Below, piece by piece: positions 42,247-60,764 of a stretch of 64,000 nt of DNA (the first letter of the stretch is position 1; every line of letters begins with the position of its first letter). The notes under the pieces are model-generated. The model was not told the DNA's origin. It worked only from the letters and a program-made list of their open reading frames with translations, and did not search any database. Origin of the DNA: Notolepis coatsorum (taxonomy: Eukaryota > Chordata > Actinopteri > Aulopiformes > Paralepididae); assembly GCA_963971535.1 (NCBI GenBank), contig OZ020589.1, positions 81,599,184 through 81,663,183 of the forward strand, given 5' to 3'. Position numbers and translations under genes: made by a program.

Positions 42247-42432
42247 TTTAACCTCTTAACCTGCGCCCCCAAAAGTGGCCATTTTAGTTTTAGTTTTTAA
42301 GGAATGCATACTTTTTTTGGAAACCAAAGCAACATACTTTATACTTATAGCACATGCATGAGCCTGGTCTCTTTTGAAAGATGACATTCTGAAGTTTATG
42401 ATTCACTTTTAGTGCTAATGAAATAGAGTAAC
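42247..42432. repeat. Dispersed repeat R1, copy 3, cut by DIRS-A
   Basis: Starts ttaacctcttaacc and matches R1 to atagagtaac at 42432. In copy 2 the sequence continues with aggtttgaac; here a DIRS-like end begins instead. Confidence 0.75.
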
Positions 42433-42761
42433 AAAGGTTATCCTATAACCCTAGTTATATGAGTAATAGCGAGCGCTCTGCTCTATTGGAACTATCCCTT
42501 TAATCATATTCTATCATGAAAACTTTCACCACGTGTACGCACCTGCCCACCTGCCTGACCACTCCCACATCCGCTCCTATATAAGCGGGGTCATGGCCAT
42601 ACTATCAGCTCCTTCCCCAGTCTTTCACAGCCTAAGCGGAAGACTGTGCGGTCCTCAGTGAGTCAGAGCAGAGCGCTCGCTATTACCCATATAACTAGGG
42701 TTATAGGATGACCTTCGTTATATTTCGTTATAGCTTACGCTCTGCTCTATTGGATCTGAGC
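42433..42761 (-). mobile_element. DIRS-A: 3' inverted terminal repeat and internal complementary region
   Basis: It begins ggttatcctataaccctag directly after AAC. About 200 bp of terminal repeat follow. Then comes an internal complementary region (about 42666-42750) that joins complements of both outer ends: cgctattacccatataacta…ataggatgacc and ttcgttatagcttacgctc. This arrangement defines the 3' side of DIRS-type elements. The element continues, inverted, at 49356 downward. Confidence 0.85.
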
Positions 42762-43626
42762 TAGGCTTGGGCGGTATGACGGTATTACGGTATACCAGGG
42801 TATTTAGAAATCCCGACGGTATTGAAAATCAATACCGTCAAAATCACAGATGCGTTTCAGTTTCTATTACACTGAAACAGAGTTTTGACAGGGACGGCAT
42901 TGGTTGTAGTGCACACACAGCACGCGCCAGCAGAGGGCGAGACCAGTCCTCACTAGTGGAGCAAGCACAGGCAGAGCTGGTTGTCTACACACAGGAGGAC
43001 GGGAAAACCCGCTTCAGTGGTGGAAATTAAATGAGACACGCTTACCGTTGCTGGTGCTGCGGGCTAACTGGCTATTCTGAGAGCTAACGTTACTAGTACT
43101 AGGGTGCTGCAGGCTAACTGACTACCGTTCTGAGAGCTAACGATAGTAGCACTAGGATGCTGCGGGCTTCTGGCTACCTTCTGAGAGCTAACGATAGTAG
43201 CACTAGGATGCTGCAGCCTTCTGGCTACCTTCTGAGAGCTAACGATAGTAGCACTAGGATGCTGCAGGCTTCTGGCTACCTTCTGAGAGCTAACGATAGT
43301 AGCACTAGGATGCTGCAGGCTTCTGGCTACCTTCTGAGAGCTAACGTTACTAGTACTAGGGTGCTGCAGGCTAACTGGCTACCGTTCTGAGAGCTAACGA
43401 TAGTAGCACTAGGATGCTGCAGGCTTCTGGCTACCTTCTGAGAGCTAACGATTGTAGCACTAGGATGCTGCGGGCTAACTGGCCATCGTTCCGTGATTTG
43501 TTTACTTGGTAACACAGGTTTCCCCCCCCCCCTGATGTAAATGAAAGTCATACCGTCATATACCGTATACAGGGGTATTATGTCATGTATGACGGTATGA
43601 AAAAAAAATTATACCGCCCAAGCCTA
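42762..43626 (+). mobile_element. hAT copy X (TAGGCTTGGGCGGTAT ends)
   Basis: The ends are taggcttgggcggtat and ataccgcccaagccta. The left flank is atctgagc (42754-42761) and the right flank is ccactgag (43627-43634). They do not match each other. The left flank matches the reverse complement of the flank left of copy Y, and the right flank matches the reverse complement of the flank right of copy Y. X and Y are therefore recombinants. The interior has ACCGTC/GACGGT words and a 51-bp minisatellite. No transposase. Confidence 0.93.
43100..43475. repeat. 51-bp minisatellite in hAT X
   Basis: Seven or so units containing aggatgctgcaggcttctgg and gagagctaacgatagtagca. The same array, inverted, is in hAT Y at 49470-49865, so it is ancestral to the family. 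Confidence 0.93.
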
Positions 43627-44137
43627 CCACTGAGTTCATCTGACCAGTCGATGCTCTCCAGTTCTTGGTTAAAGGCCTCTCTAGAGTAGGTTTTAAGGTC
43701 TCTAGATGTGACTGTTTTGTGACAGCCGGCCTTCTGTTTTAGCTTTTTGCGGGTACAGAAAATCATATAATGATCACTTAACCCGCATGCTATCACCCCT
43801 TTATTGGAGATCATGGACTTGTCAGAGGTCAAAATGAGGTCAATGGTGGTTTGTGTTGAATCACATACCCTTGTGCGTTGGGTGATTAGCTGGCTGAAAC
43901 CGTGCAGATCAGAAAACCTACTGAAGGCCCTGAAGACGGGTGCTGCTTTATGCAGCATATCCGTGTTCCAGTCCCCAATAAGAATTTTTTCTACACCCTC
44001 CACCCCAGCTAAATACCCATCAAGTGTGTCATAGAAGCCACTCTGTTCTGGCGGTCTATAGATTGTGCGTATTAGTACTGGTTTTGCCCTATCGAATAGG
44101 ATTTCAATCCAAACCGTTTCAATTTCGTCATGGTTAA
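43627..44137 (-). pseudogene. LINE family E, endonuclease C-terminal half (inverted segment)
   Basis: The minus strand carries the second half of an apurinic-type endonuclease: LIRTIYRPPEQSGFYDTL, ILIGDWNTDML, TIDLILTSD and CGLSDHYMIFCTRK, continuing to ESIDWSDEL. It stops at hAT X. The next codons of the same protein begin at 55227 on the plus strand, beyond hAT Y. The first half lies at 45086-45330 across the piggyBac-like insertion, with the reading frame unbroken. Confidence 0.92.
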
Positions 44138-45085
44138 CACATCCACCGCCGGAAACGGCTTACGACGTGTTTCAAGGTCATGTGAATTCCGCCTATCCAC
44201 GGCGTACAACGTTATTGAGATCATATTTCATTTTTTTGCCATGGTATTCATAATTCCCTCACAAGCCTGGTCTGATACAGTCGGAGCCTGCACAACAGTG
44301 CAACGCTTCAATACCGCCGCCTGGTGGATGATCGGGCGAGTTACCAAACCGGAAATGGATCGAGTCGATCTCTGTGCATCTGGGAAATGCGTCCGGCAGT
44401 CACATATTGTTGCGGGACTGTAGACACACATCCGTGTATATGGATCGCTGCCATAACTCAATAATCGATATGATTTGGGCGTTTATTATTATTATACAAA
44501 CCGGAAATGGATCTAGTCGATCCACGTCAAATAAGTGGGATCTTTTTCCTCCAGTCTCATCGGCAAACGGTAAGAGGACAGTAAAGTTACTTTCATCGTG
44601 TTTGTTTATTATTATTAATGCAAACTGCTCTGATCAATATATCACCCATACTACATAAAGCATTTACTGACGATCACGGAATTATAAATGACCCCCCCCC
44701 CGTTCATCCGCGCATGATGAGTCATAACGTTTAGGATCGTATTCAGTTGGATTTTTTAATATAGCGTGTATCACGAAATAAACTGCAATCGATAATCTAT
44801 ATTATGCGTTTAGGCCTATAACTAGCGTTCTAGGAATTACTGCAGAAAACGATAAAAACATATTTATATTCTAGACGGTATTTTCGTATGAATCTATGAA
44901 TGAAAAAGTATAATGTTCCTACATCCTGAACGATAGATAATCGATGTTGAATGGGCCATAGTAATGTCAATTTAGCAATATAATTTAAAAAGTTATAGCC
45001 CTGCAAAGAAGTTGAACATCTCCATAGGCTTAGAGTGGTGGCAGAGAGTGGTATGAGAGGGGCACAATGCCCGGCGGTCAATGTG
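44138..45085. mobile_element. piggyBac-like non-autonomous element in LINE E
   Basis: A 948-bp element with ends cacatccaccgccgg and ccggcggtcaatgtg. It is flanked by TTAA on both sides (44134-44137 and 45086-45089). Removing it with one TTAA restores a continuous LINE endonuclease reading frame (RTDLN followed by HDEIETVWIE). TTAA duplication and CAC-type ends identify the piggyBac superfamily. The interior is non-coding with short C runs. Confidence 0.93.
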
Positions 45086-45634
45086 TTAAGGTCAGTACGG
45101 TTGATGAATTTGGTATCTTTGTGTATATACACACAGATGCCACCTCCATATTGATTCCTATCCCTCCTGACTATTGAGTAGTTTTCGATTTCAATCTCTG
45201 GATCCTGTGCAGATGAGTCTAGCTTTGTTTCTGTGAAACACAATATGTTTGCCTTCCCGTTTAAAAACAATTGTCTGAATTCTGAATATATGAAGTCCAT
45301 TTGTGTTGGTAATCTGATTGATGTCGTCAAGCTGGAAGTATTGCTGTTCCTTTGTGTCCTGTCCTGTGGTGGGGGGAGGGGGGGCGTTGTTGGTGTTTGT
45401 GCCGTGAGTTGGGAGGGGGGGGGGGCGGGGGGTGATCCTTTGTCCTCTGCTAGCGTCTGTATTCCTCGGTGTGAAAGTCCACGATGTGGGGGGGGGGGGG
45501 GGGCTGGTTGTTGCTTACAGATGCGTCTGGATGTCCTCCATTGTGGGGGAGGGGGGGTGGATCTGCCCTTTGTCCTTGACCGGGTAGTCCAGCTAGCCTG
45601 GCGGGGTTAACTGAGCTAACCAGCGGGTCCTTGG
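45086..45634 (-). pseudogene. LINE family E, 5' region and endonuclease N-terminal half (inverted segment)
   Basis: The minus strand starts near 45330 with TSIRLPTQMDFI, then ILCFTETKLDSS (catalytic Glu motif) and YGGGICVYIHKDTKFINRTD. It joins the downstream half across the piggyBac-like element. Upstream, 45331-45634 holds long G/C runs and may be the 5' UTR or a decayed first ORF. Confidence 0.88.
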
Positions 45635-46307
45635 TAGGGCTGGGCGATATGGCCTCTAAAGGATATCGCGATATTTTTTTGCTATATCACGATACACGAT
45701 ATATATCGCGATATTTGGACATTTACTCTAAAGCACTTACAAATGCTTGATTTAACCCTTTGATGCATACAGTCATGCCAATACGATGATTATAATAGTC
45801 CCTGCAACATATGTTTGCATTAAACCATGAAGATGCTTTAAAAATTTATTAAATTAAAAGTTTCAAAAAATTTACTAAGACATTGTCTCTACTGAGATAC
45901 TAATACTTTTTATTTTTTGTATTAAAAATTTTACAATCTACTGTAAGACCATTTATATAAAAAAAAAACACACACACACTTTATATATACACACTACTGT
46001 GAGACAATAATAATCACACACAAAGGGATAATGGCTTATAGCAGACTTGATGATTGTATAATATTTCAGATAATGAAATTAAATGTTTATCATCAACTAT
46101 CCCAGTTTGTATTTATATTGTAACGTGTGGCCACTTTAAATCATTGAGAGCGAGAGCGAGAGCGAGAGAGAGGTTCCTGCTTGCCGCAGGGCTGTATAAC
46201 AGAATATAGGGAGGGCTGGAAATCTATTGTGCTCCCACTGTCCTGTGGAGGGCAGCAATACGCCTATACGTGTAGTCCGCCGGAAATATACAAGAAGAAG
46301 AAGAGAG

Positions 46308-46367
<60 letters not shown>

Positions 46368-46695
46368 CGTTTAGCACGTTAGTTAGATAGTTTAGCGTTA
46401 GCTGAGAAGCTAACAGTGGCTAACGTTAGCCAGTTGATCAATTCAATTCAATTGAAGGTCTGAGCTGGTCTATGTCTAATGAAATGACAATTGCTCATCA
46501 TTGAAGGTTCGCATTGGTCTGTGTCTATAATGAAATGAGAGGAAAACGCTGCGCTAAAGCAAGTCGGTCCGTGTTGATAGTTTGTTTTTAGCCGCGGCGG
46601 CTAACTGACTGCTAATACTCGATGTTCACGATATAGCAATTTACTACATCTCACGTAGAACAAGCCACGATACATCACAATGAGACTGTTTATTT
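45635..46695 (+). mobile_element. hAT end (TAGGGCTGGGCGATA) and truncated body
   Basis: Starts tagggctgggcgatatggcc, the same terminal repeat as the element at 2289, followed by TATCGCGATAT-rich subterminal DNA. No right end or target duplication is found, so it is truncated. The body contains AT-rich sequence and a GA microsatellite at 46304-46362. Confidence 0.7.
46304..46362. repeat. (GA)n microsatellite
   Basis: About 28 GA units; a shorter gagagc stretch lies at 46146-46171. Confidence 0.95.
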
Positions 46696-46871
46696 GCGCA
46701 TTCTTTACTTTCCATTTCTGTCTGGAGTTGATTCATTGGTGAGTTAATGTACAAGTCCATAATCCACAGGAGGGAAAGTAAAAAATGCGCAAAATACCTT
46801 GTTGGTTTGTAGCATCGTTTTTTTTGGCCGGGAGCTCTTTGAAATGCGACCGTCCATGTCGAGTGCCGGAT
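46696..46871. other. Junction zone with a short inverted repeat
   Basis: gcgcattctttactttcc at 46696 is mirrored by ggaaagtaaaaaatgcgc at about 46773. The limit between the truncated hAT and DIRS-A lies somewhere here. DIRS-A's 5' terminal repeat is not found. Confidence 0.45.
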
Positions 46872-49356
46872 CGTGTTTCAGAACCTCCCTCTCAGTGAGA
46901 GAGCCTCCTCAGAGTTTCAGAGCCTCCTCCTCAGATAGTCTTAGTCCAATTGTTACATGAACCTTTTTCAATTGTTTTACTCAGGTTGTGGTCTCTCTGG
47001 GATAATCGCTGTCTTCTCCTCTTACATAAAGAGCAGAATTGACGCGTTTTTATTCCCAGGCTCGAGAGGCCATTGAAGCACAAGCACGTTTTCTTATTGG
47101 CCAAGAGACATGTCCGTGAGTTACAGGGCCTGTGCTGCAGACTGCTGTTATTGTAAAGGATAGGTGATGCAATGCAGTAGCGACAATTTGTTCTTCTTCT
47201 CTGCTCCCTACCACTAGTGTATATTGGGTCAGAGCCTCCTCCTCAGGGAGTTTCAGAGCCTCCTCTGTGAGTTTCAGAACCTCCCTCTCAGTGAGAGAGC
47301 CTCCTCAGAGTTTCAGAGCCTCCTCCTCAGAGAGTCTTAGTCCAATTGTTCCATGAACCCTTTTCAATTGGTTTAGTCACGTTGTGGTCTCTCTGGGAAA
47401 ATCGCTGTCTTCTCCTCTTACATAAAGAGCAGAATTGATGCGGTTGTTATTCCCAGGCTCGTCGTATGTGAGCCCGTGTCTGTGTCTCTAGACCGGCTCC
47501 CTGCTGCAAGTCCCAGACAGCAAGGGGTAACGTTGTGAGGCTCTTTCTTGTTAGAAATTCGCCGTCACTGTTCTCGGGTTCTTTGCGAGCATATACGCTG
47601 TTTTATGAAATCAGCGTATGGTCTTATGAGACTGATCAGCGCTGGCCCAGGGTGTTTTTTCTATGATTGAATATGCTTTGTGGGTCCGGCGCACCTTGGT
47701 TGCCCAACATCATAAAAACTGTGTTTTTATGCGGTCGGCTGGGAAGGAGTTTTTTGTCTCTACCGAGCGCCAGTGCACTAGGTTAGACTCGACGGCTCAC
47801 GTACATCTCTGGGGGGAGATGACGGAGTAGATCAAAACATTGGCAGGGGGGTCTCACGCCCGTTGGGTGGGCCACCAGGAGTAGTGCGTTCGTGTACTGA
47901 CCGTCTTGGTGGTGCCCTCTGTGATGTTTTGGATCGACACGCGTACCTACCCCCCTCTTAGGACTGGGGGCGGCGGCGTGACTAGGGCACAGGACTGGTC
48001 CTGGTCCCGCCGGACCGGATCAGTTTAACCCATTGTCCGTCGGGGCGCAGACAGGTTCTGGTACCCCGAAGGACTCTGTGCTTTTCCGGGGGGAAAATGC
48101 CAGGTCGGGCTGGACGTCACAGGGGTTGATGTCATGAATGTGTGTGTGTCATATAGATGCCACTACGAGTTGCCCTTAACAGTGGCGTGCATTGGTCAAT
48201 ACTGTGTTGTACCTTTTGCACGATGTTAGGGGGTTGGTCCTTCTCCATTTGTTTTCACCCCTCCCTGCTAAACCGGGGATGGGAGGGGGCTGTCGGGGAG
48301 GCTGCTTCTGTCAACTCCTCTATGCATCCCTGTGTAGGTCCCGGTCCGCCAGGCCCAGGTCGGGCCTTGCCCTCAATGACCTGTTGACCTGGGTTAACCC
48401 TTTTTAAACCTGAAATGCTTTAACTGCATTGTATAGTGTATACACGCAGTTATGTTTCTGGGGTTTCTTAGTGGGTTAAGGGAGCAACCACCTCCTGTTA
48501 AAGTAAACATAGGGGGGTGGTTGTCTCCCTGTGTTGGTAGCAGAGTTGACTCTCGGGTTGAGGCCGGGCCTGACCCCGTCTGCCCGAGAGTATGCCCCCG
48601 CATATTTCATGACGTCTGCCAATTGTGTCAAACTCTTTCTCTGAACCTCAACCCCGCCGGATTAATAAATTGGCGGGGTCAGGGTTCGTGGAGATTGTGA
48701 CATGGTGCACAGCATACCAAAACACCCTTTCCGCTGGGATACTGTTCTTACAGTAAGCCCCTTAGGCGCCTGTCTAGTCCACAGTGCTCCGGGCGCAGGT
48801 CGAGTTCTACTCTTGGGACCTGTCGAGTTCTACTCTTGGGACCTGTCGGCCTGGATTGAGGGATCAACCTCCTTGGAGGGGTGTCTCCCCGGCTCGCTGG
48901 CTGGCCCCACAATATTGTGGGGGGGAAGCCTCCTTGGGAGAGCTTTGGAGCGGCGTGCCAAGGGGAGAAGGGCCTTCACCTGGTTTCGGTCCTGTCCGAT
49001 ACACTGGCGATGTGGGGGGTGGTGTCACCAGTGACCGTCTGGTGGGGTCTCGATGCCGCGGCCTCGTTGACCTCACCAGGCCCCTTTTTTCAGGGGGTCC
49101 TAGCCCCCGGGATGTGGCCTGGGGCGGGGACCTCCTCCGTGCCCGCTGCATGTGGCATGTGGGTTGCGCGTCTGAGTAGTCCCACGGTGTGATTACCCTG
49201 TGCGTTTGACGCGCTAAACCCTCTTCGCACAGTCGGGTCCGATCTCCCTCCCGTCCCTCGCTAGGGGGGGCGGGGGGGCCCGGATCCTCCCCGGTATTCT
49301 GATGGTTGTAGGGGACCTCAGCGCGTACATCTGTCGAGCTTCCGCTCTGCTCAGAT
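46872..49356 (+). mobile_element. DIRS-A interior (inverted segment)
   Basis: Homologous, in opposite orientation, to the interior of DIRS-B at about 50400-52700. Matched landmarks include agcctcctcagagt-cagagcctcctcctcag, ggtctcacgcc…gtgggccacc, ccggatcag, gacctgggttaaccc and cttaggcgcctgtct. The last bases, 49321-49356, continue the sequence cut at 42761. No RT, RNase H or tyrosine recombinase motif is found. A 190-bp block at 46872-47062 is duplicated at 47273-47460. Confidence 0.82.
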
Positions 49357-50054
49357 TAGGTTTGGGCTGTATAATTTTTTTCATACTTTTATTTACATCA
49401 GTGGGGGGGGGGGGCAACCCGTGTTACCAAGTAAACAAATCACGGAACGATGGCCAGTTAGCCCCCAGCATCCTAGTACTACTATCGTTAGCTCTCAGAA
49501 GGTAGCCAGAAGCCTGCAGCATCCTAGTGCTACTATCGTTAGCTCTCAGAACGGTAGCCAGTTAGCCTGCAGCACCCTAGTACTAGTAACGTTAGCTCTC
49601 AGAAGGTAGCCAGAAGCCTGCAGCATCCTAGTGCTACTATCGTTAGCTCTCAGAAGGTAGCCAGAAGCCTGCAGCATCCTAGTGCTACTATCGTTAGCTC
49701 TCAGAAGGTAGCCAGAAGCCTGCAGCATCCTAGTGCTACTATCGTTAGCTCTCAGAAGGTAGCCAGAAGCCTGCAGCATCCTAGTGCTACTATCGTTAGC
49801 TCTCAGAACAGTAGCCAGTTAGCCTGCAGCACCCTAGTACTAGTAACGTTAGCTCTCAGAATAGCCAGTTAGCCCGCAGCACCAGCAACGGTAAGCGTGT
49901 CTCATTTAATTTCCTCCACTGAAGCGGGTTTTCCCGTCCTCCTGTGTGTAGACAACCAGCTCTGCGTGTGCTCGCTCCACTAGTGAGGACTGGTCTCGCC
50001 CTCTGCTGGCGCGTGCTGTGTGTGCACTACAACCAATGCCGTCCCTGTCAAAAC
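49357..50054 (-). mobile_element. hAT copy Y, first part
   Basis: Begins taggtttgggctgtat, a diverged end, and runs as the reverse complement of copy X through the 51-bp minisatellite to cctgtcaaaac at 50054. There DIRS-B interrupts it. The left flank gctcagat (49349-49356) is the exact reverse complement of the left flank of X. Confidence 0.93.
49470..49865. repeat. 51-bp minisatellite in hAT Y
   Basis: Inverted counterpart of the array at 43100-43475. Confidence 0.93.
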
Positions 50055-50292
50055 ATTAGGTTATGTATATAACCAAGTTCTGTTAATACTAGTGACGCTC
50101 AGCGTCATATTGCATATATCTCGCTTCAGCATATATACACTGAATACATTTCAAAATGTACCTCTACATGCCAGCATTCATCTGGCCACACCCCCATCCG
50201 CTTACCTACATAAGCGGGGATGGGACCACACACTCATCTCCTTCCCAACAAATTTCACCACAATGAAAAATCAAGGGCCGCAGCGGCGTCTA

Positions 50293-50383
50293 GACGCTGA
50301 GCGTCACTAGTATTAACAGAACTTGGTTATATACATAACCTAACGTTCTGTGTCATACTAGCTCCCGCTCAGCGTCATATTGC
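50293..50383. repeat. Internal complementary region of DIRS-B
   Basis: Reads gagcgtcactagtattaac…acataaccta followed by acgttctgtgtcatacta…gctcagcgtcatattgc. It is the reverse complement of the circle formed by the two element ends, as in DIRS elements. Confidence 0.85.
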
Positions 50384-51528
50384 ATAACAGGAGCTGAGCG
50401 GGAGCTAGAAGCTCGACAAATGAACCCTGCTGAGGCCCCCTACAACCATCAGACCAGGGAGGACCGAGCCCCCCCGACCCCCCCTAATGGAGGGCACCCC
50501 CCCTATTGGAGGTTCCCGGGAGGGCGACGGACCCGACCATGCGAAGAGGCACTCAAGCAACTCAACGCACAGGGTGAGCAGACCGTGGCCTGACCCCACG
50601 ACTACACACACGCACAACCCGCATGCCACCCGGGAACGAACGGAGGGAACAACCTTGTTACTGCCCCCAGAAATCACGGGGTCAAGGGCAAACCCAACCC
50701 CGTGGCAAGGCCGTAGCAGCGGAGCGCGAAGGAAGACCCAGACCCACTGAAGGGACTGGATCCCCTGGAAAACAGGGGCCCGGAGAGGTCAATGACGCCA
50801 GGCATCAAGACCCCACCAGGCGGTCACTTAGTGACACCGCCCCCACATCGCCAGCGTAGTCGGATAAGGCCCCTCCAAGAGCGGGCCCTTTCCCCCCAAT
50901 AGCACACCGCCTGGCACACTGACCCTGCAGAACAGGCAGTCAGCATGGCCGTAAGCACACAAAAAAGGTTAACCAACGGAAGCAGGCAGCGCACCGGGGA
51001 AAACCAGGCAACAGGTTGTAACCTGAGCCTGGAGCACTGCGGACGAGACAGGCGCCAAAGGAGTCAGCTGAAAACAGCCGCCCCGGCGGAAGGGGCGTAT
51101 GCTGGCGTTGTTGCATGACCAAGCCTCCATTTTTTACCTGGTTGAGGCAGAGAAGGCTGACACGATCCGCAGACGTCATGAACGTGCAGGGGCACCCTCA
51201 ACCGGGTAACCCGGGAGTTGACACTGCTCCAACACACCAGGGAATCAACCACCTTGGTGTTACCCAATGCGGTGGTTGTTCCTATAACCCCTCATGAAAA
51301 AACTCCAAAACACACCTGCGGGTATACACCGGCTATACCGCAGTACAAGTGTTTCAGTTTTCAAAAAAGGGTTAACCCAGGCCTACGGGTCGACGAAACA
51401 TTACTTCGGACTGGGCCCGGCGATACGGGAAGCACAGGGTCACCAGATGATGTCAAAGACCACCCCAACAGGCCCCTCTTCGCCATGCGTGAGAGAGGAG
51501 CGAAAAGAATGGAGAACCAGCCCCAAGC

Positions 51529-51643
51529 ACACCGTACTTGGTATTCCCAGGCGGTCTCCCAACCAAGTACTAACCAGGACCAACCTGCGTAGCGGCCGAG
51601 ATCTGACGAGATCGAGTGTGTACAGGTTGGCATGGCCGTAAGC
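51529..51643 (-). pseudogene. 5S rRNA-like sequence inside DIRS-B
   Basis: The minus strand matches vertebrate 5S rRNA over about 113 nt. It runs from ggcttacggccatgccaacc through gatctcgtcagatctcgg and cctggttagtacttgg to gggagaccgcctgggaatac. The internal promoter region is largely kept, with changes such as ccgctacgcaggttgg where 5S has agctaagcagggtcgg. In DIRS-A the homologous place, near 48225, has no 5S sequence. It is therefore an insertion into DIRS-B. Substitutions and the lack of the usual 5S end make a functional 5S gene unlikely. Confidence 0.85.
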
Positions 51644-51650
51644 CATTACG

Positions 51651-52854
51651 ACAGTGCAGAGTACAAAATGTACCCAACCAGGGTCTCCATAGCGCTTAAC
51701 CCTGTGACACCCGGACCGACCTGGCATTTTTCCCCCTGAAAAAAGCCCAAGTCCCTCAGGGTACCAGAACAGCAGATCTGCATCCCCGGCGGACAACGGG
51801 TTTAACTGATCCGGACCAGCGTGACCAGCACCAGTCCCGTGCCCTAACCACGCCGACATGCCTACTCCAGGAGAAGGGGCAGATATGCGTGTTGATCTTA
51901 AACATGAAAAGAAGGCGCCACCCAGACGTTCGGGGCGAACCGCGCCCGGTGGCCCACCCCCAGGGCGTGAGACCCCTCTACATATGTTCAGATCCATTCC
52001 GTCATCATCCCCCAGATATGAACGAGAATCCGTCGACAACCAAAACAGGTCGTCGGAAGAGGAAAAAATCTCCATCCCAGTTGCTTTATAAAAACGCCGT
52101 TTTAACCTCAAGCAACCAAGGCGTGCCAGTCATTCGCCTGATTACAGAACACCCCGAGCTAGCACTATGCGTGCGTCGGGACACAACCACATCAATGAAC
52201 AGGCTATTTAGACCTGACATTGAATCCCCAAGGCACCCAGGGGAACGACAAGAGGGGTGTGATGCTTCCTAACTCCAACTCTTTTTAATAGAAAAGAAGG
52301 AAGCACCAACAGTATGTATCCCAGTCTACACAGCTGGGGGTAAAAATTCTTCACATTTTTACATCCCACCACCCTCCCATAGGGAGGAGACGGAAATCCC
52401 CAGAGAGACTTCCCACGCGAGCTGTACAGATTGAAAAGAATATATTGCAACCTTGAGTCATGTAAAAGTTTGGTTTTAGGGCTCTCCGGGGAGGAGGCAC
52501 TGAACCCATACACACTCAATAATCGAATTGAATCGAATACACACACAATAGAGTAGGACTCCTTTTTGAGGTTCCACTCACCTTGACAATCTGAGGAGGA
52601 GGCTCTGTACTCTGAGGAGGCTCCCTCACATGGAAGGAGAGTCCTAACTCACAGAAGGCCCGAATAGGAGCTTCGTGAGGAGGAGCCCCGACCACCCCCC
52701 GAAACAGACCCATCATATGGACCCGAACAGCTCACGGAAGTCCTACCAACAGAGACGCGCACAGTGACGTACTCTATGGCGGGGGAATTTCTGCGGTGCA
52801 CACGCCCAATATTCCAGGGCGTGGGACCAGGAAACTCCCCACACAGCGCATGTG
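51651..52854. other. DIRS-B middle region homologous to DIRS-A
   Basis: Collinear with 46872-48180 in reverse. Minus-strand open frames (for example down from 52111) run into the 5S-like sequence and show no domain. Confidence 0.6.
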
Positions 52855-54924
52855 CTAACCTGCTATCTGATTTTTACTAAGGAAAAAACACAGAATAGAG
52901 AGGGCCCTCTCAAGAGCCCCGGTACCAGACTTACACATGTGCTTCTGTGGCCAACCCAAACCAGTTGTAGGTCACACGACACACACAACCCATTATCACC
53001 TAAAAAAAATTGCAAAAAACACTCTACAGAGGAACGCCGTTTTTCATAATGAGAGAATACACAATTCTCGATTAGTATCGGCCACAGGCCTTGCTAAGCA
53101 CACACGACAAGTGACCAAAAAATATTTTCCATTGGACAATATAGTTTCTCAAGCGGTTTCAGCACAACCTCAGCAACCAAGCTAAGGGTTACATCGTATC
53201 CCTACAACACAGTGATACAATACATAGTAACCAACATGTCTGATAGGAGGGGAGGAAGCCCAGGGAACCGGGGGGAAAACACCCCTCCTACTTTACCCTT
53301 AATACGGCCAGTTGAACAGGTAAACCTGTTTACTATGTGAACACACTGTTCATTGTGATTACAGGCTGAGAAAATAATTCATTCTTCACTCATATGTCAC
53401 TAAGTATAGCTTTATAGGTTAGTTTAACCCCCTTAGTTGTGAGTACACGGTACATGAACACACATGATGTTGCTCAACACAACAAACCAGATCATTTTCA
53501 CATCTGTAATAAACAACCCGATTTGCATGGAGAAGCTAAATACCAGTGACAAGACAATTCACACATAACTCGCGTTGTATCCTAAATGTAGTGCAGCAAC
53601 ACACGTTTTGGAAAACATCGTTATTTACAAAACATTTAGAAGGGAAAGAAAGAAGAAGTGTTCAAGGTCTCGTCAAGACCTTGCCTACCGGGAGCGCAGA
53701 TCAAGCGAATTGCAGTCTCTAACATGGCACCGAAGTAAACACAGCCTCCTGTGTTTGACGACACGGGCAGCTCGCTGCTCCAACCCGCCGCTACGGTGCT
53801 CCTTGTTGACGCAGTCCTCGCCGGCCTGGCTCAGGGCAGGTTCGACGAACATCCTCTGTCAAAGATGACGTTGTAGTCAAGAGTGTTTAAAACATGTTAT
53901 AGTCACAGCACGTTCAACAGTGTAGCATTAAGCTAACGGCCGCTCTCGGCCGATAGCAGCAAGCTAACGTTTCCTAGCCTAGCCTAGGTAGGCCACAACT
54001 AGCACGCAAGTTAACGTTTCCTAGCCTAGTGACACAACAGGCTAACGCCGCAGCTAACAGCTGACTGGCTAACAGTAGGCCACCACTAGCACGCAAGCTA
54101 AGCAGCTATCACCTGAACTTGTACACAATGATATAACAAGCCACACTCAGACAGGCCGCCGTTCTGAAACCATCCTCACTGTTTAAGAGAGAAGAGAAAT
54201 GAGATGTTAACACAGTTTTACACCCGTGATTTTACCAACATCCGACGGAGCCAGCACAAGTCCCATCTGGGCTGTAGCTGACTTGAACACGGATCTTCCG
54301 ATAACGAACATCCATGCCCATATTTGATCGTGAGGGTATACTCTCATTTGTATGAAGACGGGGCCTACACGGTGACAGAGAAACATCCACTCGTCCAGAA
54401 AACACAGGGATCACCAGTGTTACTGGTCGTGGCCCACTAGTTAACTATAATGGGCTTCAGACCAAGGTCCTCCGCCGTTGCCTAAGAGGCTGAACAAAGG
54501 ACCCTAATCTGGGGCCGGTTTTCGTAAACATTGTCAGCTAGCCCCCATAGCACTAACAGACAAGCGGCGCTCGCAAGCAACATTACTCACCAACCTGGAA
54601 CCCACCGCTTCTCACAACAGTCGGTGTGTCACTACAGTCCAGCTGCACCGTCGGAGGGTTTCACCCCGTCCAGCCGCAGCAAGGAGGACTGTAGTTGGGA
54701 GGCATGTAGCGGCGTGAACTCCCAATACGAAAACCGGTGGAGGTTTTTAGAATGATCACCATCTTCCAGACACTCCAGTGACGAAGACAATATCGCCGTA
54801 TTTTCTCGAAAATAGTGAGAGAGAAAATAAAGATATGATGTCAACGTATCTCCTTGTTCTTCGTTTCCTCAGAGTAAATATTTTTCTCCACGTCAAGTGG
54901 GCATGTGAGCAGCACGTTGTTTGT
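52855..54924. other. DIRS-B 5' interior, unassigned
   Basis: About 2 kb with no recognisable coding domain. agctaacg-type words cluster at 53930-54120. Confidence 0.5.
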
Positions 54925-55106
54925 GATGAAATTTGAGAAGGAGATGAGTGTGTGGTCCCATCCCCGCTTATGTAGGTAAGCGGATGGGGGTGTGGCCAGA
55001 TGAATGCTGGCATGTAGAGGTACATTTTGAAATGTATTCAGTGTATATACGCTGAAGCGAGATATATGCAATATGACGCTGAGCGGGAGCTAGTATGACA
55101 CAGAAC

Positions 55107-55226
55107 TCTGTTTCAGTGTAATAGAAACTGAAACACATCTGTGATTTTGACTGTATTGATTTTCAATTCCGTCGGGATTTCTAAATACCCTGGTATACCG
55201 TAATACCGTCATACCGCACAAGCCTA
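55107..55226 (-). mobile_element. hAT copy Y, last part
   Basis: Resumes tctgtttcagtgtaatag and ends ataccgcacaagccta at 55226. The right flank ctcagtgg (55227-55234) is the exact reverse complement of the right flank of copy X. Confidence 0.93.
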
Positions 55227-55676
55227 CTCAGTGGTACACAGGTTGAAGAAACATGGCTTGGTTTCAAAACCAAATTCACAACAATACTCAACAACATGGC
55301 ACCTCTAAGAACCATCAGGGTTAAAAATCGCACTGAGCCATGGATGCACACTGAAATACTGGCCGCTATGAAAACCAGAGACAAAAAATGCTCGGAACTT
55401 CATAAAAGTCAGACAAAGCTTTCCAAAAGCTCAAACAGTGAACTCCAAGCCCACATGGTTGAACAAAAAATTCAAAGAAACAGACTAAAAAATGACGTAA
55501 ACACCATGATCAAAACCGCAAAAAAATATTTCATCAATGACAAAACTGAGGAAAACAAAAACAAACCACGTGAACTTTGGAAACTACTCAATAATCAACT
55601 AGGCTGCAGTAAAAAACTTAAAACCAGATTCTCAAACATAAACATAAAGACGGACAACACGCTCATCACAAACAAT
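55227..55676 (+). pseudogene. LINE family E, linker between endonuclease and RT
   Basis: Directly continues the protein interrupted at 43627. It runs LSGTQVEETWLGFKTKF, NMAPLRTIRVKNRTEPWM, a long Lys-rich helix-like stretch (TAKKYFINDK), then PRELWKLLNNQLG. It ends at LITNN (55676), where LINE D begins. The RT domain of the same LINE resumes at 63350. Confidence 0.9.
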
Positions 55677-55721
55677 GTAATTTTAGCTGACGATACAAAT
55701 GTCTTCTGTGAGGGAGAGAAC
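55677..55721 (+). pseudogene. LINE D, first part (RT catalytic motif)
   Basis: A 5'-truncated LINE inserted in LINE E. It starts at ILADDTNVFCEGEN, the RT catalytic loop, and is at once interrupted by DIRS-C after GAG AAC. It resumes at 62105. Confidence 0.85.
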
Positions 55722-55937
55722 GATAGGTTATGTATATAACCTAGTTATATGAGTACTGGCTGAGCGTCCCGCTCTTAAGCGTATCGAGATATACCTCATC
55801 TCATGTACCTATTGTACTCCATCACGAATAAAAACCGGTACACCCACACCTGCCGTGTCCCGCCTCTATGGAGGCGTAGCCTATAAGACAGTAGGCATGG
55901 TCACCAATACACTCTTCCTCGCCAAAATCTCGTTTCC
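55722..55937 (-). repeat. DIRS-C 3' inverted terminal repeat
   Basis: From gtatcgagatatacctcatc onward it is the reverse complement of 60800-60956. The outermost 30 bp, starting gataggttatgtatataacc, differ from the other end, as is usual in DIRS elements. Confidence 0.9.
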
Positions 55938-55966
55938 AGTAAAGATCCCTCAAGGGGACTCAGGGC

Positions 55967-56080
55967 CGCTTAAAAGCGGGACGCTCAGCCAGTACTCATA
56001 TAACTAGGTTATATACATAACCTATCATTATATATCGTACTTGGCTTATCGCGTCCCGCTCTTAAGCTTATCGAGATATG
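55967..56080. repeat. DIRS-C internal complementary region
   Basis: Joins the complement of the 3' end (tactcatataactaggttat…ataaccta) with the complement of the 5' end (atatatcgtacttggcttatcgcgtcccgc). It also records the pre-insertion sequence gctcttaagc of the 5' end, now broken by the insertion at 60957. Confidence 0.88.
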
Positions 56081-56288
56081 GGTAAGAGCGGACGCGAGGC
56101 CCGACCAATGTACCCCCTGAGGACCCGGGGGTTTGGGGAGTACTGTCACCCCATCCTTCCTAACGAAGGGGGGGCGCAGTCAACTCCACCGGAGTGCGAG
56201 CAAGGAGGAACTAGAACCCCTTGAACACACAGCACAGGCGGAACCACGTGTGACTTAACACACTGTGGCCCATACCCACACACTCCTG

Positions 56289-57749
56289 CTACCCGACCAA
56301 AGGACGGGAAGCAGGAAAGGCCACAGACCCCAGAACCGCCTGGGAGACAGAACCCCCGGTCATGTCCATGTGGTAAAACCTTACAAAGGGGCCCGGGGAG
56401 GACCATGAAGCTGCAGCACAGATGTCCTCCACCAAAGCCCCACCCAGGAGAGTGACAGAGGCAGCCACCCCACGAGTGGAGTGCGCCCTGACGCCCCCAG
56501 GGGGATCCTGCCCAGCCAACGTGTAGCAGAGGGCAATGCCCTCGCACAACCAACGGGACAGGCGCTGTTTCGACAGTGCCTTACCGGCACGAGAACCACC
56601 GTGACAGACAAAAAGCTGGTCGGTAACCCTGAAGTCCTGAGTACGGCTGAGGTAAATTCCCAAAGCACTGACCGGACATGACAGGTGAAGGCCCGCATCT
56701 AACTCACTAGTGTGAGGAGGAGGACGAAACGCCTGAACCACAATATCCCGGGAGCGGAAGGAACTCCGGATATTCTTAGGCATGAAAGCAGGATTAGGTC
56801 GCAGAGTGGCACCGCAATCGGCCCGAAAAGACAGGCACTCTGGACGTACCGAAAGAGCACAGAGCTCACTCACGCGTTTAGCGGAGGTAACAGCCAGCAG
56901 GAACGCGGTCTTGAAGGACAGCTGTCCCAACGGCGCCTGCTCGAGCAGGTCAAACGGGGCCAAGGACAACCGACCGAGGACCAATTGAAGATCCCAAGTC
57001 GGAGCCAAAGAGCGTTGCACCGGCTTAACGCGTCGAGCGCCAAGCAGGAAACGCTTCACAAGAGGGTGGCTGAACAAGACAGTCCCCTCAAACCCCTCAT
57101 GATAGGAGGATATAGCCGCCGCATATACCCTCACCGTCGAAGCCGACAGTCTACCAAGGAGAGACTGGAGATAACTCAGGACAGCATCCAGGGGGCAAGA
57201 GACTGGGTCCCAGCCCCCCGCCTTACACCACTCTTGGAACATACGCCATCTACACGCGTAAAGCGCGACAGTGTGTGCATTCCGGATGGTATCAACCACA
57301 GAAGGGTCCATCCTCTCCAGACTCACCCTCCCACCAGCCACACCAACAGGCGTTGGCCCAACATCGGGTACTGAAACAGTGACCCGTTGTGCTGTGAGAG
57401 GGTCATCGCCGACCAAGGAATAACCCAAGGAGGAGCGACCAGAAGCTGGATCAAGACCGGGAACCACACTGCCATGCCCCGGTCCGGTGCGACCAGGATC
57501 ACCGTCCTGTGCTCCCTCCGTATCAACTCCAACAGCTGACCCAACAGCTGTACAGGAGGAAAGGCGTACAGAAGACCGGGCGGCCATGGAAAGGTCGAGA
57601 AGGCATCCACTCCCAAGGGGGGATGATCTGCTCGACTGACCGAGAACCACAAGGGGCACTTGTGAGAGTGTCGGCTCGCAAACAGATCTACCGAGGCCTC
57701 CCCGAACCGATCCCAGATCTGTCTGACTATGTCGGGGCGGAGTTCCCAC
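56289..57749 (-). CDS. DIRS-C tyrosine recombinase
   Basis: An open frame of 486 codons. About the first 150 residues overlap the RNase H/linker region in another frame and are probably not all used. The recombinase proper starts near SLERMDPSVVDTIRN and has an N-terminal SAM-like DNA-binding part (WRMFQEWCKAGGWDP, VLSYLQSLLG). The catalytic domain carries an Arg in TSAKRVSELCAL, the His-x-x-Arg box AHSTRGVA and the Tyr in FVRFYHMD. All key residues are present and no stop interrupts the frame. In DIRS elements this enzyme integrates a circular DNA copy, replacing the usual DDE integrase. It follows RT on the same strand, as in the family. Confidence 0.9.
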   Translation of the reverse strand: MGTPPRHSQTDLGSVRGGLGRSVCEPTLSQVPLVVLGQSSRSSPLGSGCLLDLSMAARSSVRLSSCTAVGSAVGVDTEGAQDGDPGRTGPGHGSVVPGLDPASGRSSLGYSLVGDDPLTAQRVTVSVPDVGPTPVGVAGGRVSLERMDPSVVDTIRNAHTVALYACRWRMFQEWCKAGGWDPVSCPLDAVLSYLQSLLGRLSASTVRVYAAAISSYHEGFEGTVLFSHPLVKRFLLGARRVKPVQRSLAPTWDLQLVLGRLSLAPFDLLEQAPLGQLSFKTAFLLAVTSAKRVSELCALSVRPECLSFRADCGATLRPNPAFMPKNIRSSFRSRDIVVQAFRPPPHTSELDAGLHLSCPVSALGIYLSRTQDFRVTDQLFVCHGGSRAGKALSKQRLSRWLCEGIALCYTLAGQDPPGGVRAHSTRGVAASVTLLGGALVEDICAAASWSSPGPFVRFYHMDMTGGSVSQAVLGSVAFPASRPLVG

Positions 57750-59267
57750 CCGTCGCGACGAGGACCGCCCGAGACATCATATCCGCGCCCATATTCTCTG
57801 CCCCAGGAATGTGGAGCACCCTCAGACTGCGCAGCCTGCGAGATGCCCATAGCCAAAGTTCGACCGCCGCCCGGTGCAGGTGGGCCTGTTGATATACGCC
57901 GCTGCCGTCACACTGTCTGTCCTGACCAAAACGTGCTCGCCTAACACCAGGTGGTCGAACCGTTTGAGGACCAGGAGGACCGCCTTCAATTCCAACACAT
58001 TGATGTGCGGGGCAGATGGGCCAGCATGAACCGCCGTCAAGCTGCTCCCCACTGCGTGGGTCCGACACGTCCCTCCCCAACCCGTGAGAGAGGCGTCGGT
58101 GAAGACCGCAACGTGTAAGCGCCTGCTGCCCATGGGGACCCCAATGGTGAGGATACCCAGCCTCCTCCAATGGGCGAGATCTCCCCATATCGACAAAGGA
58201 ACTGTCAACCGTTTCCATTTGTCCCTCACCGGATCTATTCTCATAGAGAAAAACCACCTCTGTATCCTCCTCATGAAGAGGAGGCCTAGAGGAACCACCG
58301 TGTGAGCAGATGCCATCATACCGAGCAGACGCATCACTTGCAGCGCCGTGACCGTCCCTCCCAGACGGAAACCCCAGAGCGCGCGAATGATAGACACCCG
58401 GCGCTGCTCCGAGAGGGTTACAATCATGGGCCTCGACCTCAACGTCAAGCCCAAGTACTCCACCTGTTGACTGGGAAGAGGTGTACTCTTCTTCCAATTC
58501 ACAGCAAAACCCAGCCTGGTGAGGAATTCCACCACCAGCCTGGTATGAGACCTGGCAACCTCCTCCGAACGACTGAGGAGTAGAATGTCGTCGAGATAGA
58601 ATAGAACCCGTATCCCCTGACGACGTAGAGGCTCCAGTGCAGTCGCCACGCACTTGGTGAATGTGCGGGGAGCCAGAGAATAGCCGAACGGCATCCTCTG
58701 ATACTCGTACGCTACGCCCTGAAACAGGAACCGTAGGAACTTCCTGTGAGGAGGGAAAATCGGGATGTGAAAATACGCATCCTTCAGGTCTATGGAGGCG
58801 AACCAGTCTCCCCTTCTGACAGTAAGCAGAAGGAGTTTGACGGTCAACATCCTGAACGGTCTCGCTACAATCATACGATTGAACGCGGACAGATCCAGTA
58901 TAGGTCTGACCCCCCCTGTTTTCTTGGGTACCAGAAAATAACGGGAGTAGACGCCTGACATCGCGTCCCCTCTTGGAACCACGACGACGGCCTGCTTCGC
59001 CAACAGAGATTGGATCTCGTCGGCCAGGGCTGTCACTGCTTCTGACCCTGACAACAGGGTCGGCACCAAACCTGAGAACGGAGGGTGGGGTTGTGCGAAC
59101 TGCCACACAAGCCCCTCCCTCAATGTTCTCCCTATCCACCCCTCCAAACGGCATTCTTGTCGCCATATGTGAAAATAATCCCACAGCGCACCCGCCGTCA
59201 ACTGACGCTGGGCCGCAAGGAACAGTAGATAGTTGGCCCGGTCCCTCCCGCTGTGCGACGCACCCAA
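57323..59267 (-). pseudogene. DIRS-C reverse transcriptase-RNase H, frameshifted
   Basis: From 59267 down to 57822 one frame encodes the RT: YSRYFLVPKKTGGVRPILDL, FASIDLKDAYFHIPI, YQRMPFGYSLAPRTF and the catalytic VLFYLDDILLL. The RNase H start follows (AVFTDASLTGWGGT, INVLELKAV, RTDSVTAAAYINR). The protein then shifts frame near 57870 (VELWLWASRRLRSLRVLHIP) and again near 57760 (PDIVRQIWDRFG, VDLFASRHSHKCPLWFS). It ends with FPPVQLL and WFPVLIQLL, the conserved region after RNase H in DIRS. An overlapping open frame of similar length at 57727-59352 is mostly a shadow, except for its last part. Confidence 0.9.
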
Positions 59268-59315
59268 GGGGGGACCCCGACAGAAAGGGCCAGTTTGATA
59301 CGGGAGAAGGTGTCA

Positions 59316-60764
59316 TCAAACCGGTTGACACACACCCCCCCCCCCTGAACACCCCTCTAGCGCAAGCTGAGGAGCTGTTCCGCAGCTAGACACGCAAGGC
59401 ATGAGGACCCCATGGGCTCCTACACGCCGAAGCCCTGCAGTGATATTGCTACCACCCAAATCACGCTCGCCTCTTCTTTGCAGACCACTGCCGCTGTAAC
59501 GGGAGTGTGAGTCATCAGCGCGATACCCCGCCTGGCGTAGGTGAGGCCGGGGTAACCCTTGCTGTACATTCAACAGAAGAGGTCTCGAGTCCCCCTGCTG
59601 ACCACCGTAGCTAGTGGCAGCTGTAACACCAGGCTCATCCATCACACAACGTGTGGTGCATGAGCCACGCGACAGAACATTCTCACGGACAGACCCAGGC
59701 TCAGCCATCAACTGGGTGTCAGCCCCTGTCCCCATGAGAAGTGAAGAATGGGGCCGCATGCGCTTCAAGGAAGGTTTGCGGCCCGCAGCCAAAGGAGAAC
59801 GATCAGAGCCCCGCTTCCGTGGGTAACAGAGAGAGGATTGAACAGGGAGCGGGCTGCTCGCGGAAAAGTGACGACGGCTTGTTTTACCAAACTCGAATTC
59901 ACCCAAAATGGCCGATCCCTCGGCCGCCAAGGCTGTCGGCCTTGTGGAACCCTGTTGACTCTCCACCCAGGGCACCACTGGCGGGGGAAACATGGCCGCC
60001 TGTCAAGGATCTCGCCACAGTCGTTGACGAGACCGTGCTCCCACCTCTGGCTGCACAGCGTGAGGCGGTGTAGGACCCAGATCAACAACCGCCTACGCCT
60101 CCACAGAATGACCAAAAATATTTTCTGTGAAAAAATGAGTCGTGAGGAGAGAAAACCTATCCTCTTCCCCAAGAGGAGATTGCTCCAACCAAACATGCCT
60201 AACAACAAACGTTGATAGCATCCTAATCCTCCCCGCAGTTATAGCTTGCGACTGAGTCAAGATCTCTATAACACCACAAACAAATATGACTCAGCGAAAC
60301 CCCCCACATTAGCAACAGACTGACCTTCATCAATTAAGCGGGCAAGAGGAGGGAAAAGCGGAATTGTCCCACGGCGGGGATCATTAGAACAACGACCCAT
60401 TTCAGCGTCTACATTAGCATTTAGCAGTAGTAGCATTAGTAGCATTAGCGTTAGCAGCGTGCTCCAGGATTGCCAGGAAAACGTCCACTGCAGTGGAACG
60501 TTCACCAAGCCACCCCGGCCCTGGCGCCGAAACATACTCCACAGCATTACCAATACCAACATTGATGCCTGATGACACAGGGCCTACCTTTGTACAAGCC
60601 GGCTCGATAGCCAAACCTTGTACGCTGCCCCTTGGTCTGCTGCCGTCAGACAAGGAAACATCAACACAGGCCCGTCGTGTCGCTGAAACATGCCTCGAAG
60701 ATGCCAGGGGTAAGCAAACCTCCGGTAAGCTTTCTACATTACGTAATTTCTCTAATCTTTTCAT
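59316..60764 (-). pseudogene. DIRS-C gag-like region, frameshifted
   Basis: It probably starts at 60764 (KRLEKLRNVESLPEVC). The first frame runs to about 60414, then others continue to 59316. The end borders a C run at 59335-59346 that separates it from the RT frame. DIRS gag proteins are poorly conserved; I infer the identity from position only. The stretch FPPPVVPWVESQQG lies near 59990. Confidence 0.6.

Follow-up and report, generated by a model that had tools for sequence, protein, structure and literature searches.

Inversions flanked by two opposed copies of one transposon, with the target duplications of the two copies exchanged, have a described precedent. According to the account of inversion 2z3 of Drosophila buzzatii (Delprat et al. 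2009, PMC2775673), inverted copies of a single transposon lie at the breakpoints, their target duplications are exchanged, and later insertions are nested in the copies, all of which is also seen at the locus reported here. The transposon at 2z3 is Galileo, of the P superfamily, with 7-bp duplications, whereas ours is hAT-like with 8-bp duplications; 2z3 is moreover large and polymorphic, was compared with non-inverted chromosomes and has chimeric copies, whereas our segment is about 6 kb long and seen in one genome. In the same source, duplications become exchanged either through ectopic recombination between two inverted copies or through hybrid-element insertion, which starts from two copies at a single site, and the two routes are told apart by chimerism. 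In a study on reversed-ends transposition of maize Ac/fAc (PMC8225341), hAT ends, an inversion and 8-bp duplications at the junctions resemble the present case, but one new duplication marks both junctions, whereas here two pairs are both exchanged; by our reasoning, one pair would stay unmatched if reversed-ends transposition involved two elements at separate sites. That study also states that recombination turns the inner duplications round and gives each element flanks that are unlike. In a human survey (Aguado et al. 2014, PMC3961182), segments between inverted repeats are flipped as here, with signs of recurrence in 11 of the 16 such inversions analysed, but those repeats are called large and many individuals were genotyped, in contrast to the single genome and the 0.8-kb transposon copies of our case. 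Inversion breakpoints with exchanged target duplications were already published in 2009 (PMC2775673).

Against this background the present locus is a small, clean example of a known event involving a hAT-like element, and is unusual only in the cleanness of its record. Literature searches returned no titles concerning it, which is weak evidence, and a second published study (PMC3355041) reportedly also deals with inversions of this type, in which the target duplications of the transposon copies are exchanged. The locus lies in a stretch of 64,000 nucleotides of Notolepis coatsorum, hereafter the window, which contains the following features around the two copies, named X and Y:

42425-42761, plus strand: left part of DIRS-A, broken at 42761, with inverted repeats at 42429-42484 and 42665-42720
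42754-42761, plus strand: target duplication a, first copy, atctgagc; left flank of X
42762-43626, plus strand: hAT-like copy X, 865 bp
43075-43496, plus strand: array within X of tandem 51-53 bp units
43627-43634, minus strand: target duplication b (ctcagtgg), inverted copy, reading ccactgag; right flank of X
43627-44137, minus strand: upstream LINE piece, from the endonuclease region (Pfam Exo_endo_phos_2, slightly over the cut-off)
43627-49356, minus strand: minimal segment read as inverted, 5,730 bp
48864-49356, minus strand: beginning of DIRS-A's right part, with the break at 49356
49349-49356, minus strand: target duplication a (atctgagc), inverted copy, reading gctcagat; left flank of Y
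49357-50054, minus strand: hAT-like copy Y, first part, without about 50 bp near its 49357 end
50055-55106, unstranded: later insert in Y, DIRS-like, 5,052 bp, with aac at its borders (50052-50054 and 55104-55106)
55107-55226, minus strand: hAT-like copy Y, second part; Y totals 818 bp with 49357-50054
55227-55234, plus strand: target duplication b, ctcagtgg; right flank of Y
55227-55675, plus strand: downstream piece of the same LINE

X and Y are copies of one element in opposite orientation, 97% alike and less than 6 kb apart. They differ at 22 of 812 aligned sites, three of which are adjacent (838-840) and edge a gap in Y (49357-49400, against 785-833 of X), where X and most family copies have about 50 bp. 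The element starts with taggcttgggcggtat and X ends in the reverse complement of taggcttgggcggtat, giving short terminal inverted repeats; no open frame of at least 120 aa was found within X or Y. The element, which is short and presumably non-autonomous, reads as a hAT-like transposon from its 8-bp duplications and terminal inverted repeats, and we take duplications of this length and ends of the taggcttgggcggtat type to fit the hAT superfamily. Searching the assembly (3.42 Gb, 4,787 contigs) with X gave at least 70 matching stretches, drawn from the best 40 of 3,304 candidates. The ends were sought in 27 family copies and both were recognised in 19, with 8-bp flanks matching at no more than two mismatches in 16 of these and exactly in 12. 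The three with unmatched flanks are L006, L014, whose right end is a weak match and possibly wrong, and L015 (G000:C7:136257900-136260900), whose flanks tacacatc and tggcatgg may reflect decay of its ends or another recombined copy. The array of 51-53 bp units varies in length among family copies; 5 to 24 pieces were parsed in 31 other copies, some of them undercounted, as pieces of at least 102 bp show. Element matches at L053 (G000:C1:128082000-128085200) are fragmented, with one piece on the minus strand and two on the plus strand, as if rearranged. Copies L021 and L061 (G000:C29, near 120,748,427 and 120,361,830) are separated by about 387 kb; their match statistics are identical, 24 and 23 array units respectively were parsed in them, and they are perhaps a segmental duplication.

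Read in the orientation of the element, the left and right flanks are atctgagc and ccactgag for X, and ccactgag and atctgagc for Y. A first-pass annotation of the window had placed both copies and their flanks, and on re-reading its coordinates and letters are exact to the base; it had also described the flanks as unlike within each copy and as exact reverse complements crosswise, and indeed all eight positions mismatch within either copy and none of eight mismatches crosswise, for both pairs. Two independent ordinary insertions, with flanks that agree crosswise by chance or after decay, might be imagined, given that the flanks of 3 of the 19 two-ended family copies are unmatched; against this stand two 8-mers that are exact crosswise. 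Among the 171 pairs formed by the 19 other family copies, one full cross-match occurred, between L003 and L028, both of which carry the simple-repeat duplication gtgtgtgt, and the next best pair had 5 mismatches in 16. A chance match of the X and Y flanks was rejected on this control, the sole full match being that of a simple-repeat duplication.

The interrupted LINE bears on the same point. The reverse complement from 43627 upward, followed by the sequence from 55235 onward, forms a single reading frame through the join, and in the LINE copy L010 on C6 this join aligns in one piece, with 931 of 952 positions identical and ctcagtgg present once. For the comparison L010 was taken together with the next 20 of 38 further copies listed, the list being drawn from the best 40 of 8,131 candidates. 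Each of these 21 spans, in one aligned piece, the join that an inversion predicts, L048 by 18 bases only; 17 align over nearly their full length, with an exact ctcagtgg in 16 and a single change to it in L034. At the join expected if X were a simple insertion, all 21 loci match the LINE half alone, from the join or from 6 bases before it, and at the corresponding join for Y the LINE half alone is matched in 20 loci, L048 having no match. X and Y as simple insertions in place were therefore rejected, since none of the 21 LINE copies crosses the non-inversion joins. The interrupted elements continue across the flipped joins only and the LINE copies contradict two independent insertions, an explanation to which we give almost no credence. 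Most LINE copies lose their match at 44137 (query base 190), where the piece is joined to something else (44137-44160, minus strand). After 55675 the LINE is broken by a further element (55715-60000, minus strand) with inverted repeats at 55719-55781 and 55967-56029 and a frame at 57822-59312 that matches a reverse transcriptase (RVT_1, E 1.5e-26); by resemblance this element is DIRS-like. Pfam matched three of seven pieces, one of them below the curated cut-off, and the other four had no match of any kind.

On the other side of the segment the interrupted element, around 42425-42761, is presumably a DIRS, labelled DIRS-A, and the insert within Y (50055-55106) also appears DIRS-like by resemblance. 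The left part of DIRS-A aligns with the DIRS sequence inside the window at 50182-50629 no further than the break. A query made of 42562-42761 and the reverse complement of 49049-49348, that is, the predicted join, aligns in one piece (score 283) with 50190-50638, a diverged relative inside the insert in Y, whereas the wrong joins reach best scores of 101 and 183, each the value of one half. Among the other loci compared, L038 alone has a DIRS-A match, which ends short of the join. Continuity of DIRS-A from 42761 to 49356 read backwards is thus indicated by a single diverged relative within the window, together with the exact 8-mers.

The crosswise duplications, the LINE join and the DIRS-A join together imply that at least 5,730 bp between X and Y are inverted. 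Turning 43627-49356 back restores the two interrupted elements and the two duplications, as judged on the DIRS-A side by one in-window relative, and the inverted piece would extend some way into X and Y. That the segment is inverted in this assembly is therefore a supported reading of the sequence. The first-pass annotation had called an inversion of about 6 kb proven, which is fair for this assembly given the crosswise duplications, the LINE join and the DIRS join within the window; its claim that the LINE protein broken at 43627 resumes in frame at 55227 is borne out by the open frame and by the 21 continuous copies elsewhere in the genome, and its parallel claim for DIRS-A holds against the one diverged DIRS in the window and no further. 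Flanks wrongly joined by the assembler at inverted repeats would give the same picture with no flip in the organism, and errors of this kind often arise at inverted repeats that are, as here, 97% alike. At 865 bp, however, X would be short relative to long reads, and the window contains no N, so that a misassembly appears improbable.

As to mechanism, the segment was probably flipped by homologous exchange between two inverted hAT-like copies. Before the flip, two copies of the short non-autonomous element would have lain in opposite orientation, copy A inside DIRS-A with the duplication atctgagc and copy B inside the LINE with the duplication ctcagtgg. Exchange between these 0.8-kb inverted repeats would turn the intervening DNA, so that either copy seen today would combine an end of A with an end of B and the duplications would have changed places. 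Our judgement favours recombination because 0.8-kb inverted repeats that are nearly identical and separated by less than 6 kb would readily recombine; in humans, too, flips between inverted repeats recur, albeit at repeats called large (PMC3961182). The agency of homologous recombination and an odd number of flips are inferred, as would be any placing of the exchange within X and Y or of the arrival of the DIRS-like insert in Y.

Swapped flanks are nevertheless no proof of recombination, since the scars of a hybrid-element insertion are the same (PMC2775673); the word proven in the first-pass annotation is therefore not fair for the crossover. In a hybrid-element insertion a single step would flip the segment, make the second copy and leave both duplications exchanged, with an outcome that the same source gives as strikingly similar to that of ectopic recombination, except that the copies start out identical. 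X and Y are mutually nearest among the compared copies (2.25%), have one change in common that is absent from all 23 other copies compared, and both show the array order AATTTTATA, which occurs in none of 31 other readable arrays (38 tried), all of which would fit such an origin. Other copies are almost as near, however (L011 at 2.6%, L012 at 2.7%), and in the left part X is nearer to L002 than to Y. The proposal that X and Y are clear sisters, drawn from the array order and the one shared change, is weakened by the near-equal closeness of L011 and L012. The same likeness and timing are also predicted by a local jump followed by recombination, and hybrid-element insertion is judged the rarer reaction; we consider it unlikely here, though likelier than the other alternatives. 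An alignment of X and Y, suggested in the first-pass annotation for finding the crossover tract, located no tract. Outside the array, 392 sites were compared with 30 other copies on the left and 23 on the right; X and Y differ at 13 of these, six private to Y, two private to X and five uninformative, and no chimeric pattern relative to the family emerged from them. With 22 of 812 sites differing, X and Y are too similar for the chimerism test to have power.

Timing is in keeping with either route. The LINE copy at this locus has 11 private changes in 952 positions (about 1.2%; 17 other copies compared), 4 of 503 inside the flipped segment and 7 of 449 outside, and X and Y have each changed by about 1.2-1.4% since they parted. 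The closeness of these values would be expected under hybrid-element insertion, in which the second copy would arise together with the flip. Dating by the difference between X and Y against the private changes of the LINE was set aside, as the values are alike and do not separate the mechanisms. The LINE insertion sets an upper bound on the age of the flip.

If hybrid-element insertion were true, a non-autonomous hAT element would have rearranged the chromosome by transposition rather than by serving as passive homology. The X/Y locus can be read as a base-exact fossil of a transposon-mediated inversion, and a single genome suffices to read it, as each target site falls within another repeat of which intact relatives exist. 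Crosswise duplications, combined with uninterrupted copies of the repeats that were split, could be sought throughout a whole assembly, so that small inversions might be counted with no other genome for comparison.
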